Positions 703-5,500 of a DNA stretch of 64,000 nucleotides are shown piece after piece. A program made the translations under genes and the position numbers. The DNA is from Cytophagaceae bacterium (lineage in GTDB: Bacteria > Bacteroidota > Bacteroidia > Cytophagales > Spirosomataceae). The stretch is taken from assembly GCA_027491195.1 (NCBI GenBank), contig JAIXWQ010000012.1:248001-312000 (forward strand), given 5' to 3'. Position 1 is the stretch's first letter. Each line of letters starts with the position of its first letter. The notes beneath the pieces were generated by a model, which searched no databases, was not told the DNA's origin, and saw nothing but the letters and a program-made list of their open reading frames with translations.

Positions 703-2646
703 ATGTTTAAAAAACTGGTATTTATAGGGCTTACGGCCTTGATTTCGACAGCAGCGAATGCCCAAAGCAAGTATTCTGCTTACGAATTATTTCATCCCTT
801 ATGGAACTATGGACCTGTTTCCCCTGCGCGTTCAGCGGCGGGAGTTCCAGGACCTGGTTATTGGCAGAATTCGGCAGATTATAAGATTGCCGTTTCCTTA
901 GATGATGTAGCGAACAAAATCACAGGTGATGTGGAGATTACCTACAAGAATAATTCTCCAGACAAATTGCCTTTCTTATGGTTGCAATTAGACCAAAACA
1001 GCTTCAATACGCAATCTCGCGGAGGCAAGACGACGCCCATCAGTGGGGGACGTTTTGGGAATTTAGCTTTCGAGGGTGGCTATAAAATCGAGAGTGTAAC
1101 GATCGATGGCAAGCCGGCTAACTTCATTGTGGAGGATACGCGGATGCAGATTCGTTTAGCGTCTCCTTTAGCAGAAAAAGTAGGAACAGCTAAGATTAAA
1201 ATTGCCTATTCTTTCACTTCTCCAGAGAATGCTTCGGACAGAATGGGAATACAGCAAACGAAAAATGGTGCCATCTATACAGTGGCGCAGTGGTTTCCAC
1301 GCGTTTGCGTGTACGATGACATTGAAGGATGGAACGTATTGCCTTATTTAGGAGCAGGGGAGTTCTATTTAGAATATGGCAATTTCGAATATTCCATCAA
1401 TGCACCAGCGTCTCATATTGTCGTAGGTTCAGGGGAATTATTGAATCCAACAGAAGTATATACTGCTGATCAGGTGAAGAAATGGGCTGCTGCGGCGAAC
1501 TCAGAAACAACGGTCGTGATTCGTTCAGCGGCTGAGGTGACTGACCCGGCTTCTCGTCCGGCGAAAGATCGTTTAACTTGGAAATTTAAGTGCAACAATG
1601 CGCGTGACGTGGCTTTTGCTTCGTCTAAAGCTTTCATCTTAGATGCTTGCCGCATTAATTTGCCTAGTGGTAAAAAGTCATTGGCTGTTTCGGTTTATCC
1701 AGTTGAATCGGATGGCAAAGACGCTTGGGCTCGTTCTTCAGAATATGTAAAAGCATCGATTGAGCATTATTCGAATTGGTTGTACGAGTATTCGTATCCA
1801 GTAGCGACTAACGTAGCAGGTATCGTTTCTGGAATGGAATATCCAGGTATTATTTTCTGCGGTTACAAAGACAAGACGGCTTCTTTATGGGGTGTGACGG
1901 ATCATGAGTTTGGCCATAATTGGTTCCCAATGATTGTTGGTTCGAATGAGCGTAAGTTTGCTTGGATGGACGAAGGATTTAATACTTTCATCAACTTTTA
2001 TTCGACAGATGCCTTTAATAAGGGGGAATACAAGAACCAAAAATTTGACATGCACAAGCTTGCTCCTCGGATTTTTCGTGATAATGCAGACCCGATTATG
2101 TCGATTCCTGATGTCATCCAAACACGTAATTTAGGAATGGAAGCTTATGGAAAGCCGGGTTTTGGTTTACGTATCTTGCGTGAAAATATCCTAGGCGCGG
2201 ATCGTTTTGATTATGCATTTAAGAATTATATCGCCAAATGGGCCTTCAAACACCCAACCCCGATGGATTTCTTCCGCGCGATGGAAGATGGTGCAGGCGA
2301 GGATTTAGGCTGGTTCTGGAGAGCTTGGTTCTATGAGCTTTGGAGACTTGATCAATCCGTGAAAGATGTGGATTATGTAGAGCAAGATCCAGCTAAAGGA
2401 GCCGTGATCACAATCGAAAACTTAGACAAGATGGCGATGCCAGCAGTCGTGGAAGTTGAATTAACAAGTGGAGAAAAAGAGCGCTTCACGTTCCCAGTAG
2501 AAATCTGGCAGCGCGGTGCGACTTGGACATTCCGCACGTCAACCAAGCTTCCAATCAAGGCAGTGGTTATTGACCCAGATCATTCTTTCCCGGATATGGA
2601 TTCGAAGAATAATACATGGAAGCCGCTGAGTGTGCGGTCGAGATAA
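703..2646 (+). CDS. M1 family zinc aminopeptidase, secreted
   Basis: A 647-residue protein with an N-terminal signal peptide ([20 protein letters not shown]). It carries the gluzincin signature: HEFGH at about residues 401-405 and the third zinc ligand Glu 18 residues later (WMDEG, about E424). The GMEYPG motif near residue 377 corresponds to the GxMEN substrate-binding loop. It probably trims peptides in the periplasm or outside the cell. I chose ATG 703 over an in-frame TTG at 682, because 682 overlaps the upstream gene and would put seven polar residues before the signal peptide. A strong terminator follows. The substrate is unknown. Confidence 0.88.
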
Positions 2647-2647
2647 T

Positions 2648-2682
2648 AAAAAAGCCCTTGCGAACTGCAAGGGCTTTTTTTA
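2648..2682 (+). terminator. intrinsic terminator after M1 peptidase gene
   Basis: An 11-12 bp stem (AAAAGCCCTTGC with GCAAGGGCTTTT, loop about 5 bases) is followed by a T run right after the stop codon at 2646. A-runs on the other side mean it could also work in the opposite direction. Confidence 0.88.
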
Positions 2683-2745
2683 TAAGTTTATTTGTAGGAT
2701 GTGGAGAAGATTATCATCAACTTGGTGACAACTAATCCACTAATT

Positions 2746-2865
2746 ATGAAAATTCTATTCCTACAATCGCTTTGGTTTGGAGAATTGATCTCCATTCTTG
2801 TTTATGTTGTTATTATTCTACTTTTGTTTCAAGTTATTCGTTGGCTTTATAGAAGGCTGAAATAA
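2746..2865 (+). CDS. small single-helix membrane protein, 39 aa (candidate)
   Basis: A short open frame from ATG 2746 to TAA 2865. After a short N-terminal stretch (MKILFLQSLWFGE) it encodes one hydrophobic segment of about 18 residues (LISILVYVVIILLLFQVI), then a basic tail RWLYRRLK. This is a positive-inside, single-pass layout. The stop directly abuts the stop of convergent tyrA at 2866. There is no Shine-Dalgarno site, which is normal here, and I recognise no family. It could be a chance ORF in the gap after the terminator, but the hydrophobic block plus basic end is more protein-like than expected by chance. Confidence 0.4.
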   Translation: MKILFLQSLWFGELISILVYVVIILLLFQVIRWLYRRLK

Positions 2866-3723
2866 CTAACCTTTTAATATCCTTCCAATATCATTCGCCT
2901 TACCTAACTCCTCCTTCAGCTTTTCGTAGCTGCCGGAAAGCATCAGGCCTTTGTATTTCAAGAGGGTATTGATATACTCATCGAGAACATCCAAAAGATT
3001 CTCCTGGTTCTGGTGGAAAATCTGGCTCCAGGTTTCTGGGGATGATTTTGCTAAACGGACGGTCGACTCGAAACCGGTGGAGGCTAATTCGAAAATGCGG
3101 GCTTCGTTCTTCTCTTTCTCTAATACCGTGTTCGCTAAGGCGAAGGAACAGATATGGGAGATGTGCGAGATATAGGCCGTGTGCATATCGTGTTCGATGG
3201 AACCCATGTAAATGAGGTTCATTTCTAAGCCGCTTTGGTAAAGATCTTCGATCAGTGTAACCGCAGCAGGATCGCTTAATTCTTTGTCGCAAATCACGCC
3301 ACGCTTTCCCACGAACAGGCCTTGAACGGCTGCTTCTGGTCCGGAGAATTCGGTTCCCGCCATTGGGTGTGTGGAAACGAACTGGCTGCGCTTAGGGTGG
3401 TTTTTTAAGGCCTCGTAAACGGGGCTTTTGGTAGAACCTACTTCAATGATCACTTGCCCAGGTTTTAAAGCATCCAATACCGAAGGAATTAGCGCTACCA
3501 AAAGGTCTACTGGAATCGCGCAGACAAAAACTTCGACTTGGTCGATGGCCTCTTGCCAGGTGGCGATGCGGTCTACGAGTCCTAAGGCTATTGCCTTTTT
3601 CTGGTGCTCGGGATTCGTGTCGATACCTACGATTTCAGAGGCCCATCCAGACTTTCTTAATCCTAAGGCAATAGAGCCACCGATTAATCCGATACCGATA
3701 ATGCCTACTTTATGAGATGCCAT
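2866..3723 (-). CDS. tyrA: prephenate dehydrogenase
   Basis: Converts prephenate to 4-hydroxyphenylpyruvate with NAD(P)+, the committed step to tyrosine. The 285-residue protein opens with a Rossmann motif (GIGLIGGS, residues 10-17). It has the active-site block STHPMAGTEFSGPE with the family's catalytic His, and the dimer-domain motif AYISHISH. There is no chorismate mutase domain and no C-terminal ACT domain, so it is monofunctional. ATG 3723 (MASHKVGIIG) is preferred; longer starts run 43 residues into the preceding gene. The start overlaps the end of the upstream aminotransferase gene by 14 bases, so the two are translationally linked. I infer control by the Tyr attenuator at 4891-5047. 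Confidence 0.92.
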   Translation of the reverse strand: MASHKVGIIGIGLIGGSIALGLRKSGWASEIVGIDTNPEHQKKAIALGLVDRIATWQEAIDQVEVFVCAIPVDLLVALIPSVLDALKPGQVIIEVGSTKSPVYEALKNHPKRSQFVSTHPMAGTEFSGPEAAVQGLFVGKRGVICDKELSDPAAVTLIEDLYQSGLEMNLIYMGSIEHDMHTAYISHISHICSFALANTVLEKEKNEARIFELASTGFESTVRLAKSSPETWSQIFHQNQENLLDVLDEYINTLLKYKGLMLSGSYEKLKEELGKANDIGRILKG

Positions 3724-4888
3724 TGCTATGATTTTTAATGCGATCGATTGCTTGTGAGAAAACGGATTCTTGGGCACAAAGAGAGATGCGGACGTAGCCG
3801 TCTCCTTGCGTCCCAAAGATTCCCCCCGGCGTAATAAACACCGCGTTTTCATCTAATATTTTATCTGAAAGTGCGTAGCCGGAGTCGAATGTTGCAGGGA
3901 TTTTGGCCCAAACAAACATCCCCGATTGTGCCGGATCATACACGCAATCTAGTAAGTCTAAGAGTTCGAAAACTAGTTTTTGGCGCGAACGGTAAATGCG
4001 ATTCTGATTCGCAAACCAGTCCGCATCCGCAGAAAGGGCCTTCACCGCAGCTTGCTGAAGCGGTAAGAACATCCCCGAGTCCATATTCGATTTGAATTTC
4101 AACACAGGCGCTAGGAATTCAGCTTTCCCAAAAGCCGCCCCAATTCTCCATCCCGCCATATTGTGGGACTTCGAAAGGGAATTCAATTCGATCGCCACGT
4201 CTTGCATGCCCGGAATTGAAAGCATGCTCAATGGCTGCTCGTTCAAGATAAAACTGTAGGGATTGTCATTCACTAAAAGAATCGAATTTCGAACAGCAAA
4301 ATCGCGCAACTCCACGAAGAATTCTTTCGTTGCCTGTGCACCCGTGGGCATGTGCGGGTAGTTTACCCACATAATTTTCACTTTCGAAAGATCTCGCTTT
4401 TCTAAGGCTTTCAAGTCTGGTAACCAGCCATTCGAAGCCGATAATTCATAGCTTTCAACCGTAGCACCTGCTAAAGAACAGGCCGCAGAATAGGTTGGGT
4501 AGCCCGGATTAGGAATCAGAGTTAAATCGCCTTTTTCTAAATAGGCCATGGCGATGTGCATGATGCCTTCTTTAGAACCGATAAGTGGTAAAATCTCAGA
4601 AGCCGGATTCACTGTTACGCCGTAATTTCGAAGGTAAAAAGCAGCGAATGCCTCGCGCAATGCAGGAATACCTTGGTAGCCTTGGTAGGCATGATTCGAA
4701 GGATTTGCTGCACTTTCTGTGAGCGCCGCGATCGTTTCAGCGGAAGGAGCTAAGTCTGGGGAGCCGATACCTAAGTTAATGATAGGTACACCGGATTCCT
4801 TCAAAGCCGCTATCTGCTTCAATTTTTTGGAGAAATAGTATTCCTCCACGCTGTTTAAGCGGCTCGCCGCTGTGATTTGTAAGCTCAT
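3710..4888 (-). CDS. class I/II PLP-dependent aminotransferase (aromatic/tyrosine pathway)
   Basis: A 392-residue fold-type I aminotransferase. Visible PLP-binding features are NPGYPTY (about 127-133), NYPHMPTG, DNPYSF and the Schiff-base Lys in NSLSKSHNMAGWRIG (about K240). The family includes aspartate-, aromatic- and LL-diaminopimelate-type enzymes. Its position directly before tyrA in one operon suggests that it transaminates 4-hydroxyphenylpyruvate (and perhaps phenylpyruvate). ATG 4888 is chosen because the in-frame TTG at 4930 would place the terminator hairpin inside the coding sequence. The leader upstream carries a Tyr-rich peptide and terminator, which supports the tyrosine assignment. 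The exact substrate is inferred. Confidence 0.85.
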   Translation of the reverse strand: MSLQITAASRLNSVEEYYFSKKLKQIAALKESGVPIINLGIGSPDLAPSAETIAALTESAANPSNHAYQGYQGIPALREAFAAFYLRNYGVTVNPASEILPLIGSKEGIMHIAMAYLEKGDLTLIPNPGYPTYSAACSLAGATVESYELSASNGWLPDLKALEKRDLSKVKIMWVNYPHMPTGAQATKEFFVELRDFAVRNSILLVNDNPYSFILNEQPLSMLSIPGMQDVAIELNSLSKSHNMAGWRIGAAFGKAEFLAPVLKFKSNMDSGMFLPLQQAAVKALSADADWFANQNRIYRSRQKLVFELLDLLDCVYDPAQSGMFVWAKIPATFDSGYALSDKILDENAVFITPGGIFGTQGDGYVRISLCAQESVFSQAIDRIKNHSNGIS

Positions 4889-4890
4889 AA

Positions 4891-4916
4891 AACAAAAAAC
4901 CGACGTAAAGTCGGCT
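4891..4916 (-). terminator. attenuator terminator upstream of the aminotransferase-tyrA operon
   Basis: Read on the minus strand: GCCGAC, loop TTTAC or similar, GTCGGT, then TTTTTTG. The stem has 5 GC-rich pairs plus one G-U pair, with a run of six T. It ends 2-3 bases before the ATG of the aminotransferase gene, so it lies between promoter and coding region. That is the place for an attenuator and not for the end of an upstream gene. Its 5' arm can instead pair with the bases just after the leader-peptide stop. Confidence 0.75.
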
Positions 4917-4946
4917 GATATAATTGACAAAAAACTATATAACCGA
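4911..4946 (-). promoter_or_regulatory. putative antiterminator pairing in tyr leader
   Basis: On the minus strand UCGGUU (4946-4941) begins at the first base after the leader-peptide stop codon. It is complementary (5 Watson-Crick pairs and one G-U) to AGCCGA (4916-4911), which contains the 5' arm of the terminator. A ribosome stalled at the Tyr codons would leave UCGGUU free and favour antitermination. A ribosome reaching the stop codon would cover it and let the terminator form. The pairing is seen in the sequence; the mechanism is inferred by analogy with known amino-acid attenuators. Confidence 0.6.
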
Positions 4947-5012
4947 TTAGGCAGCGTTGTAATAACCTGCGTAATAATATGCTGTTAAATAGTTGATTGC
5001 GTGTGAATTCAT
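4947..5012 (-). CDS. tyrosine-rich leader peptide (21 aa)
   Basis: A short frame from ATG 5012 to TAA 4947 encodes 21 residues, six of them tyrosine: Y8, the run Y12-Y14, and Y17-Y18 (C-terminal part LTAYYYAGYYNAA). A Tyr content of nearly 30% directly upstream of a tyrosine-biosynthesis operon is the hallmark of a regulatory leader peptide. The ATG lies only 4 bases after a perfect TAnnTTTG promoter element, so the mRNA may be leaderless or nearly so. The stop codon is followed at once by the antiterminator strand. The peptide probably has no function beyond sensing Tyr-tRNA supply. Confidence 0.75.
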   Translation of the reverse strand: MNSHAINYLTAYYYAGYYNAA

Positions 5013-5016
5013 ATTC

Positions 5017-5047
5017 CAAAGGTAGGGAAAATTTGCTTTTATGCAAA
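5017..5047 (-). promoter_or_regulatory. promoter of tyr leader (TTTG-N19-TACCTTTG)
   Basis: On the minus strand TTTG (5047-5044) and TACCTTTG (5024-5017) are 19 bases apart. This matches the Bacteroidota sigma-A promoter at both elements. The -33 part lies in the last codons of recX. It also overlaps an inverted repeat, ATTTGC-N6-GCAAAT (5031-5048), which could be a chance palindrome or an operator. Confidence 0.75.
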
Positions 5048-5491
5048 TAGAGGCTTCAAAAGCTCACGAACTAACGAAGATTCGTAGCCTTTCGAGAGCC
5101 CGTAGTTATAGCATTTTTGGTAGCGCTGAGGCGAGGTACCAGTTTTGATCTCGTCATACTTTTTCTGTAACAAGGTGCGGGCCTTCTCGATATAATCTTG
5201 ATCGTCGATTCCATCCCAGGCACCGGCTAATAAAGAAGCTGAGATGCCGCGCTTTCGTAATTCGTAATTGATTTTAGTGCGTCCCCAGCCTTTTTGGTTG
5301 AATTTAGAACGTACGAAGATATCGACAAAACGGGCTTCGTTCAGGTAGTTGTTTTCGCGGAGCCAGTTTAAATACTCAGAATAATCGGCCGAAGAAACCT
5401 CGAAAGTCTTCATCTTTTGTTCCAGTTCCTGCACGCATCTTTCCTGATAGGCGCAGTAGCGGGCCAGCTTTTGAAGAATTTCGCTATTCAT
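5039..5491 (-). CDS. recX: regulatory protein RecX
   Basis: A 150-residue, all-helical, charged protein with the RecX repeats. Typical blocks are LNWLRENNYLNEARFVDIFVR, split by helix turns, then GWGRTKINYELRKRGIS and the later AWDGIDDQDYIEKARTLLQKK. RecX proteins bind and modulate RecA filaments in recombination and the SOS response. Length is usual for the family. It starts 9 bases after the stop of hemA and so is probably co-transcribed with it. Its 3' end contains the -33 element of the downstream tyr promoter. recA is not in this window. Confidence 0.87.
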   Translation of the reverse strand: MNSEILQKLARYCAYQERCVQELEQKMKTFEVSSADYSEYLNWLRENNYLNEARFVDIFVRSKFNQKGWGRTKINYELRKRGISASLLAGAWDGIDDQDYIEKARTLLQKKYDEIKTGTSPQRYQKCYNYGLSKGYESSLVRELLKPLFA

Positions 5492-5500
5492 CAGGATAAA

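Follow-up and report, generated by a model that had tools for sequence, protein, structure and literature searches.

A probable tyrosine-specific leader-peptide attenuator ahead of an aminotransferase-tyrA operon and its relation to aromatic leaders of Bacteroidota

The element described here lies upstream of an aminotransferase-tyrA operon and in all likelihood regulates it by ribosome-mediated transcription attenuation, with charged tRNA-Tyr as the signal. It was found in a window of 64 kb, by which we mean the whole stretch of DNA that was analysed, from a genome of the genus of Aquirufa (Cytophagales), in which Aquirufa antheringensis is a named relative. Judged from sequence comparison, it is the tyrosine-only branch of widespread Bacteroidota aromatic leaders on pheA-aat operons. 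In the proposed mechanism, transcription would begin at the leader AUG or within a few bases of it, and a ribosome would trail the RNA polymerase along a Tyr-rich ORF. With ample Tyr-tRNA, the ribosome would arrive at the stop codon and cover the first bases beyond it; because these covered bases are the 5' strand of the antiterminator, the terminator would form and transcription would end. With scarce Tyr-tRNA, the ribosome would stall at a Tyr codon, the antiterminator would form first and capture the 5' arm of the terminator, and the antiterminated transcription would continue into the genes of tyrosine biosynthesis. A first-pass annotation had already read the site as a ribosome-mediated tyrosine attenuator, and the conserved codons, pairing and spacing presented below support this reading.

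All features are on the minus strand, in the order recX end, promoter, leader ORF, antiterminator strand, terminator, aat, tyrA. The promoter, TTTG-N19-TACCTTTG, agreed base for base with the first description. Its -33 element TTTG (5044..5047) is inside the 3' end of recX, and its -7 element TACCTTTG (5017..5024), of the Bacteroidota form TAnnTTTG, follows after 19 nt. Bacteroidota-type promoters usually start transcription a few bases after the -7 box. The leader ATG (5012-5010) is located only 4 nt downstream of this box, so that the leader mRNA would be almost devoid of a 5' untranslated part if the start position is the usual one. At 5039-5047 of the window, the -33 element falls within the last recX codons (LFA stop). 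Inspection by eye indicated that several relatives keep the recX end and that the upstream sequence differs from it in other relatives.

The leader ORF (4947..5012) encodes MNSHAINYLTAYYYAGYYNAA and ends with the stop codon TAA at 4949-4947. As claimed before, it counts 21 codons, six of which are Tyr (codons 8, 12, 13, 14, 17 and 18). A hairpin within the ORF, GCAGGUU...AAC-G-CUGC (4951..4970), is a candidate pause hairpin. The 5' strand of the antiterminator, UCGGUU followed by AUAUAGUU, occupies 4933..4946, its first base coming directly after the leader stop, and the corresponding 3' strand occupies 4911..4925. UCGGUU (4946-4941) is complementary to AGCCGA (4916-4911) in the 5' arm of the terminator, a segment that terminator and antiterminator have in common. 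The two folds are mutually exclusive, as had been proposed, and the pairing is conserved in relatives. The last Tyr codon ends at 4959 and the gap to the antiterminator is 12 nt, exactly the distance noted at first sight; a spacing of 6-20 nt turned out to be general in relatives. The intrinsic terminator hairpin with its T6 is likewise present where it had been seen, AGCCGAC-UUUAC-GUCGGUU (4916-4898), with 7 pairs and the loop UUUAC. The T tail behind the stem covers 4894..4897, the six T in a row running from the 3' arm into the tail. Among ten terminator-like sites in 2500-5500 (3.3 expected), this terminator ranked first.

The terminator is followed after 9 nt by aat (3710..4888, ATG at 4888), a class I/II aminotransferase of 392 aa plus stop (PF00155), whose start is 58 nt from the leader stop. 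The best NCBIfam match of aat was LL-diaminopimelate aminotransferase, under the cut-off, and because the best NCBIfam models stayed below their cut-offs, its substrate was deduced from the neighbour genes. The next gene, tyrA (2866..3723), is a prephenate dehydrogenase with NF006307 above cut-off, and its likely ATG overlaps the 3' end of aat. The site thus unites a short ORF rich in codons for the pathway product, an intrinsic terminator before the first structural gene and a competing antiterminator. By its geometry, a stalled ribosome would leave the antiterminator free and a ribosome at the stop would cover it; equilibrium folds of the stalled state agree with this in part.

A scan for TAnnTTTG followed, no more than 40 nt on, by a first ATG that begins an ORF of 6-40 codons, with a perfect-stem terminator within about 120 nt of that ORF, returned a single occurrence on both strands of the 64 kb, which is this site. 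The leader detector responded to 0 of 955 dinucleotide shuffles and to 6 of 191 reverse complements of homologous regions. A plain recX terminator and a constitutive promoter, with a Tyr-rich ORF that arose by chance or encodes a free-standing small protein, would be a simpler explanation, and recX is indeed just upstream, with its 3' end overlapping the promoter. The terminator, however, sits beyond promoter and ORF and not at the end of recX, and in several relatives, L018, L027 and L120 among them, the leader is kept although the upstream sequence, by eye, is unlike a recX end. The absence of hits in shuffled sequences speaks against a chance ORF. We therefore find this explanation barely credible and retain the attenuator.

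Conservation was complete wherever the aminotransferase was found in the family. Among 38 genus genomes, the full aat was present in 36, G025 contributed a fragment with its upstream region, and no orthologue was found in G027; all 37 upstream regions carried a Tyr-rich leader. A family sample of 200 genomes contained aat at E <= 1e-130 in 59, of which 25 were outside the genus, and no such aminotransferase at this threshold in 141. The 25 upstream regions from other family genera had a Tyr leader without exception, which brings the total to 62 of 62 family loci (37 from the genus and 25 from other genera). The terminator had a perfect stem in 59 of these 62 loci and was found in all of them when one mismatch was allowed. 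For the weaker homologues L206 and L208 no leader was detected. Duplicate genus genomes (L032-L036) were dropped, and contigs repeated from family genomes (L037-L044, L047 and L049) were left out of the counts; L121 duplicates L112, and the proteins of L083 and L150 are identical. In the 15 named family loci, no pheA was found near aat on the same strand within flanks of up to 3 kb.

The promoter was conserved together with the leader. Of the 62 family loci, 61 had TTG at the -33 position, and the -7 box preceded the leader ATG by 4 nt in 46 loci and by 5 nt in 8 (54/62). It stood 18-24 nt before the ATG in 7 loci and was not found in one, L143. As a control, none of 386 other ATGs of these regions had a -7 box 3-6 nt upstream. 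The near-leaderless start raises the question of how ribosome loading at the extreme 5' end would be fast enough to follow the polymerase.

The leader peptides diverge strongly and have little in common beyond Tyr, as illustrated by MNSHAINYLTAYYYAGYYNAA, MQNANNTYPNYYYYYGQ, MATILYTASYYYYYANA and MHSFSTYRYYSYYAESA; over the family, their codons add up to 376 Tyr versus 42 Phe. For a codon table we collapsed 35 loci of the genus and the sister L120 to 25 distinct 66-nt ORFs, leaving out the 63-nt ORFs of L018-L020. Codons 8, 12, 13 and 14 were Tyr in 25/25, codons 15-16 were always Ala-Gly, codon 17 was Tyr in 22/25, and codons 2-7 were variable. The Tyr-codon conservation that the first-pass annotation had named as a check was thus borne out. 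The invariant YYYAG at codons 12-16 (25/25, genus and sister) and the five-Tyr runs that recur in other genera could also point to nascent-peptide arrest, where a Tyr-rich peptide would stall in the tunnel in response to free tyrosine or some other ligand, in the way TnaC responds to tryptophan. Against this, the peptides diverge widely between genera outside their Tyr codons, and YYYAG coincides with the fixed arm of the ORF hairpin. Relatives with pheA, described below, use Phe and Tyr codons in varied order, which fits codon sensing, and induction by an excess of tyrosine would make little sense for a biosynthetic operon. We consider arrest very unlikely, and sensing of Tyr-tRNA through the codons remains our preferred reading.

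The competing folds were examined in 40 unique stop-to-terminator regions, 39 from the family and one from L099, a Lentimicrobium locus. In all 39 family regions, the best pairing strand started between the last base of the stop and 4 nt beyond it. Compared with 1000 dinucleotide shuffles of the linker, the pairing reached p <= 0.05 in 25/40 and p <= 0.01 in 12/40, and 15/40 exceeded p = 0.05. At L099 the best pairing after the stop was no better than chance (p = 0.44), the automatic choice of the arm being wrong. For the window alone, the pairing of antiterminator and terminator arm did not stand out significantly from shuffles of the short linker (p = 0.11); it is conservation, rather than the single sequence, that establishes the predicted pairing there.

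Further evidence came from 23 distinct triples, each combining an antiterminator strand with the shared arm and the 3' arm of the terminator; the anchors of this alignment were partly set by hand. Positions y1 and y2 were invariant. At y4 the antiterminator pair was U-A in 14, C-G in 6 and U-G in 3 triples. Both partner strands change in step where L136 carries T instead of C at y5 and where L144 carries T instead of G at y3; these are among the compensatory changes that the first annotation had suggested looking for. Antiterminator pairing was low at y0 (61% of triples), y5 (74%) and y6 (65%). In permutations, which ignore relatedness, the observed antiterminator pairing was reached in 30/5000 for all eight positions, in 0/5000 for y4 and y5 together and in 1/5000 for y4 (Watson-Crick). 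The same permutations, again ignoring relatedness, gave 0, 92 and 2000 of 5000 for the terminator at all positions, at y4 and y5 and at y4. The terminator's own y4 pair accordingly showed no covariation (2000/5000 permutations equally good).

We then modelled folds for 53 perfect-stem sequences including L099, with L125, L128 and L138 left out. When the ribosome was placed at the stop codon, the terminator had a probability of 1.00 in 53/53. When it was placed at the last Tyr codon of the window leader, the terminator reached 0.70 and the antiterminator 0.32. Stalled-state antiterminator probabilities were 0.86-1.00 in the seven sequences of the type MNFENK.../MHFENK...YFHC (L022-L026, L112 and L113) and 0.94-0.95 in L018-L020. 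Of the 19 sequences that represent more distant genera, 13 stayed below 0.1, and values of 0.00 were obtained for L007 and L118 of the genus itself. Since the terminator is often the stronger fold at equilibrium, the switch would need co-transcriptional kinetics; in classical attenuators, the antiterminator forms before the 3' arm of the terminator is made. RNA free of ribosomes favoured the terminator, with at least 0.93 in 46/53. In the free fold of the window, the antiterminator strand is masked by pairing with bases from codons 7-11, and an untranslated leader is therefore predicted to terminate. Start of transcription, leader translation, stalling and the response to Tyr-tRNA charging are what we infer from these features.

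The hairpin within the ORF reached 7 pairs or more in 12 of the 15 distinct tails examined (genus and L120), in more than one register. It was weak or different in L018, L020 and L118, and it does not overlap the antiterminator strand. Its 5' arm was fixed (ACGCAGG in nearly all, genus) and its 3' arm variable. A role in pausing is conceivable for it.

The distance that a stalled ribosome would gauge was followed across the leaders. To cover it, we took up to two detected ORFs per locus, counted identical ones once and excluded L201, which left 104 leaders of loci with pheA next to aat (pheA-type, see below) and 55 of the family. The antiterminator began 6-20 nt past the last aromatic codon in 100 of the 104 pheA-type leaders, with a median of 12 nt, and in 46 of the 55 family leaders, with a median of 13 nt; shuffles gave 33% and 34%, respectively. 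Pairing energy counted from the last aromatic codon was at p <= 0.05 in 66/104 and 9/55, respectively. In many pheA-type leaders the antiterminator strand is inside the ORF, and in the family of the window it is behind the stop; a pairing test anchored at the stop gave p <= 0.05 for only 10 of 84 mixed leaders. On this sequence evidence, it is the spacing between control codons and antiterminator that is conserved, the quantity that matters to a stalled ribosome. At L099, a fit by hand had 7 pairs starting 13 nt past the cluster YYYAYYY. At L196 the distance was 14 nt by hand (18 automatically) and at L194 23 nt (27 automatically), with automatic p > 0.7. These three hand fits postdate the failed automatic result and count for less.

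The same spacing, together with the conserved codons, would go unexplained if the leader RNA itself bound a metabolite or tRNA, as a riboswitch or T-box, and the ORF were incidental. A terminator/antiterminator pair would by itself fit such an RNA, and T-boxes govern tyrosine genes in other bacteria (PMC1262725, as far as its accessible text goes). No Rfam family, however, reached its gathering score in the window, and the 30-53 nt between leader stop and terminator across the family leave no room for a T-box. In 4600-5500, the sole Rfam match at E <= 5 was a viral frameshift element with E 1.9, which is no credible hit. In 28 further loci only Flavo-1 (L090) and a SAM riboswitch (L099) were found, both at other places of their loci and on the opposite strand; the latter, RF00162, is at 1723-1822 on the minus strand of the Lentimicrobium locus. 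For lack of an Rfam match at gathering score and for too little room, we rejected a riboswitch or T-box, which seems hardly tenable here.

Control by the leader over translation of aat or stability of its mRNA, for instance by reinitiation, and not over transcription, was also weighed. The leader stop of the window is 58 nt from the aat start, which might allow it; the reinitiation at leader genes that appears in the available part of PMC4833913 operates over far shorter distances (11-14 nt in Bacteroidetes). The distance from terminator to aat, moreover, ranges from 9 to 106 nt in the 59 family loci with a perfect stem while hairpin and T-run are kept, and a T-run behind the stem marks an intrinsic terminator. 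We hold translational control to be extremely unlikely and the operon to be regulated, most probably, by transcription attenuation.

In Bacteroidota, pheA is frequently found directly upstream of aat. Our wider sample consisted of the 80 best named loci out of 585, together with the 65 genomes, of 296 searched across the class, that had aat at E <= 1e-100. Leaders ahead of pheA mix Phe and Tyr codons and sometimes contain Trp, as in MKNFFWNSFYFYFYFFSRGMRLL and MFTNAYNWNFYFFFFYFFKRGTGLL; shortage of either Phe or Tyr would therefore switch the operon on. Among the best 80 of 585 named loci and the 65 class-wide genomes, 85 of 102 pheA-type loci had a leader with terminator, L201, which pheA adjoins, being counted as pheA-type. 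Duplicates had been taken out before this count, in which named and sampled loci may still have species in common. At least two Phe and at least two Tyr were present in 84 of these 85 leaders, which together hold 305 Tyr versus 438 Phe codons, and Tyr outnumbered Phe in 7. Of the other loci without adjacent pheA, 3 of 27 had a leader (L099, L194 and L196), and in all three Tyr exceeded Phe. The same was true of 65 out of 65 leaders without pheA ahead (62 from the family and the 3 others). The share of Phe differed between pheA-type and family leaders with p = 3e-25 in a rank test that ignores descent and does not have L201 among the pheA-type.

The detector found no leader in 17 of the 102 pheA-type loci, many of which come from two families (f14 and f2). 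These loci are L158, L166, L170, L176-L180, L185, L186, L188-L190, L195, L199, L203 and L205, and either loss or detector failure would account for them. A leader could be missed where the upstream sequence was short (about 180-220 nt, e.g. L079, L086 and L096). At the Sphingobacteriaceae loci, which are without adjacent pheA, no leader was detected.

The history of the tyrosine form was followed on a midpoint-rooted tree of 111 aminotransferase proteins, built by a quick method and with SH-aLRT values as branch support. The 17 family rows were on a single branch with support 100. L099, from a Lentimicrobium MAG, was placed beside a Bacteroidales row with a mixed leader (support 94), within a well supported group of 27 rows. 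On this gene tree the Tyr label required two changes, both forced by well supported branches. Because mixed leaders are spread over the tree, two gains of Tyr from mixed ancestors are the simplest reading. The L099 operon comprises aminotransferase, tyrA and DAHP synthase/chorismate mutase (proteins named by reading) behind the leader MASASNNMYYYAYYYLNGNKGSYVLL, and no pheA was present in the flanks examined. L194 and L196 (family f24) have aat with no detected adjacent pheA; their leaders, MNNWSTYYYSCDSGY and MNNWATYFFSYYARR, are short, and the Tyr bias may have arisen there a third time.

Up to 20 of the 102 pheA-type loci carried tandem aromatic leaders, each with its own terminator. In this count the second ORFs of L071 and L089 are doubtful, and of two ORFs at L062 one passed the detector. 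Examples are L054, L065, L070 and L076, and Chitinophaga, Hymenobacter and Saprospiraceae are among the organisms concerned. A serial arrangement of this kind might make the response sharper. Of the 85 mixed leaders (L045-L111, L146-L209), 34 contain Trp codons, and some of these may therefore also sense tryptophan. The element of the window fits the group as we delimit it, namely an aromatic-codon leader, a terminator, an antiterminator about 12 nt past the last aromatic codon and an aat operon. We think it likely that Bacteroidota share this unclassified group of aromatic leaders and that control codons are rewritten as the gene content of the operon changes: mixed Phe/Tyr with pheA and aat-tyrA, and a pure Tyr sensor where pheA no longer heads the operon, which would have arisen at least twice independently, with tandem leaders at up to 20 of 102 pheA-type loci. 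The comparison across operons would then be a natural experiment, in which a handful of codons sets the specificity and changes as one gene leaves the operon.

The genome of the window has a single pheA elsewhere, behind tRNA genes. Reading of the sequence by eye revealed no Phe leader upstream of it, and the detector no His leader upstream of hisG. Upstream of trpE (L210 719-861, contig C10 of the same genome), the box TACATTTG at 719-726 is followed by an ATG at 744, the leader MTKATYNKNWWQG with tandem Trp codons and the terminator AAGGCTTGCTGTTCGACAGTAAGCCTT with a T tail. From its sequence, this leader before a trpE-like gene is probably a Trp attenuator. It has two Trp codons and was found by reading; the detector, which required three, missed it. 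It had no Bacteroid-trp match at the Rfam gathering score.

To our knowledge, tyrosine is absent among the amino acids that are sensed by leader-peptide attenuation. For tyrosine, Escherichia coli uses TyrR. A tyrosine member would fill that gap, and in a phylum where less is known about the control of genes. Lopatovskaya 2010, to go by the title, is reportedly about attenuation of amino acid operons in bacteria. In the excerpts returned by a full-text literature search on tyrosine leaders, Cytophagales and Bacteroidetes attenuation, no tyrosine-specific leader attenuator was found. The initial statement that a leader of this kind is undescribed therefore stands for the tyrosine form, with the qualification that related elements exist, among them a pheA element (PMC9723704) and aroR (PMC11802643), both known to us from parts of these papers.

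T-boxes sense tRNA directly, without translation. The tyrosine T-box resembles what is proposed for the window element in tRNA-Tyr sensing and in control of tyrosine genes, and the accessible text of PMC1262725 lists histidine, threonine and phenylalanine as amino acids with attenuators and assigns T-boxes to tyrosine; the T-box model had no Rfam match in the window. In Corynebacterium glutamicum, the aroR leader contains Phe-Tyr-Phe and precedes an operon that includes aroF; it responds to Phe and is reportedly unaffected by the availability of Tyr (PMC11802643, citing Neshat 2014, in the portion available); phylum and gene are other than in the window. In Acholeplasma, the uORFC-13-1 motif has an upstream ORF with Phe coding beside a terminator before aroF (PMC8632094, in part). 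It shares ORF and terminator with the window element and differs in its Phe codon(s), phylum and gene.

Other comparable elements come from Bacteroidota. Bacteroid-trp (RF01692), which appears among Bacteroidetes cis-regulatory RNAs in the part of PMC2864571 at hand, carries a name that points to trp genes; neither the window nor 28 further loci matched it at gathering score. For Bacteroides thetaiotaomicron, the accessible text of PMC7366714 mentions short ORFs reminiscent of leader peptides. For Flavobacterium psychrophilum, the available portion of PMC9723704 gives strong indications that leader peptides attenuate amino acid operons, with structured 5' elements before pheA, hisG and others that are common to other Flavobacteriaceae and without Rfam hits. 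This pheA element probably belongs to the same group as our mixed Phe/Tyr leaders; that portion describes it without codons, a Tyr-only form or a link to operon content. The mechanism is known; what appears to be new is a tyrosine-specific form of it and the coupling of control codons to operon content.

The closest analogues in logic are the trp, phe (pheL) and his attenuators of Proteobacteria. Like these, the element of the window has a leader peptide with control codons, mutually exclusive terminator and antiterminator, a U-run and a biosynthetic operon behind them. A candidate strand-1 pairing that would mask the antiterminator is seen in the free-RNA fold predicted for the window sequence. 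The element differs from these attenuators in its control codon, Tyr, in its Bacteroidota promoter and in an ORF that begins almost at the expected start of the transcript.
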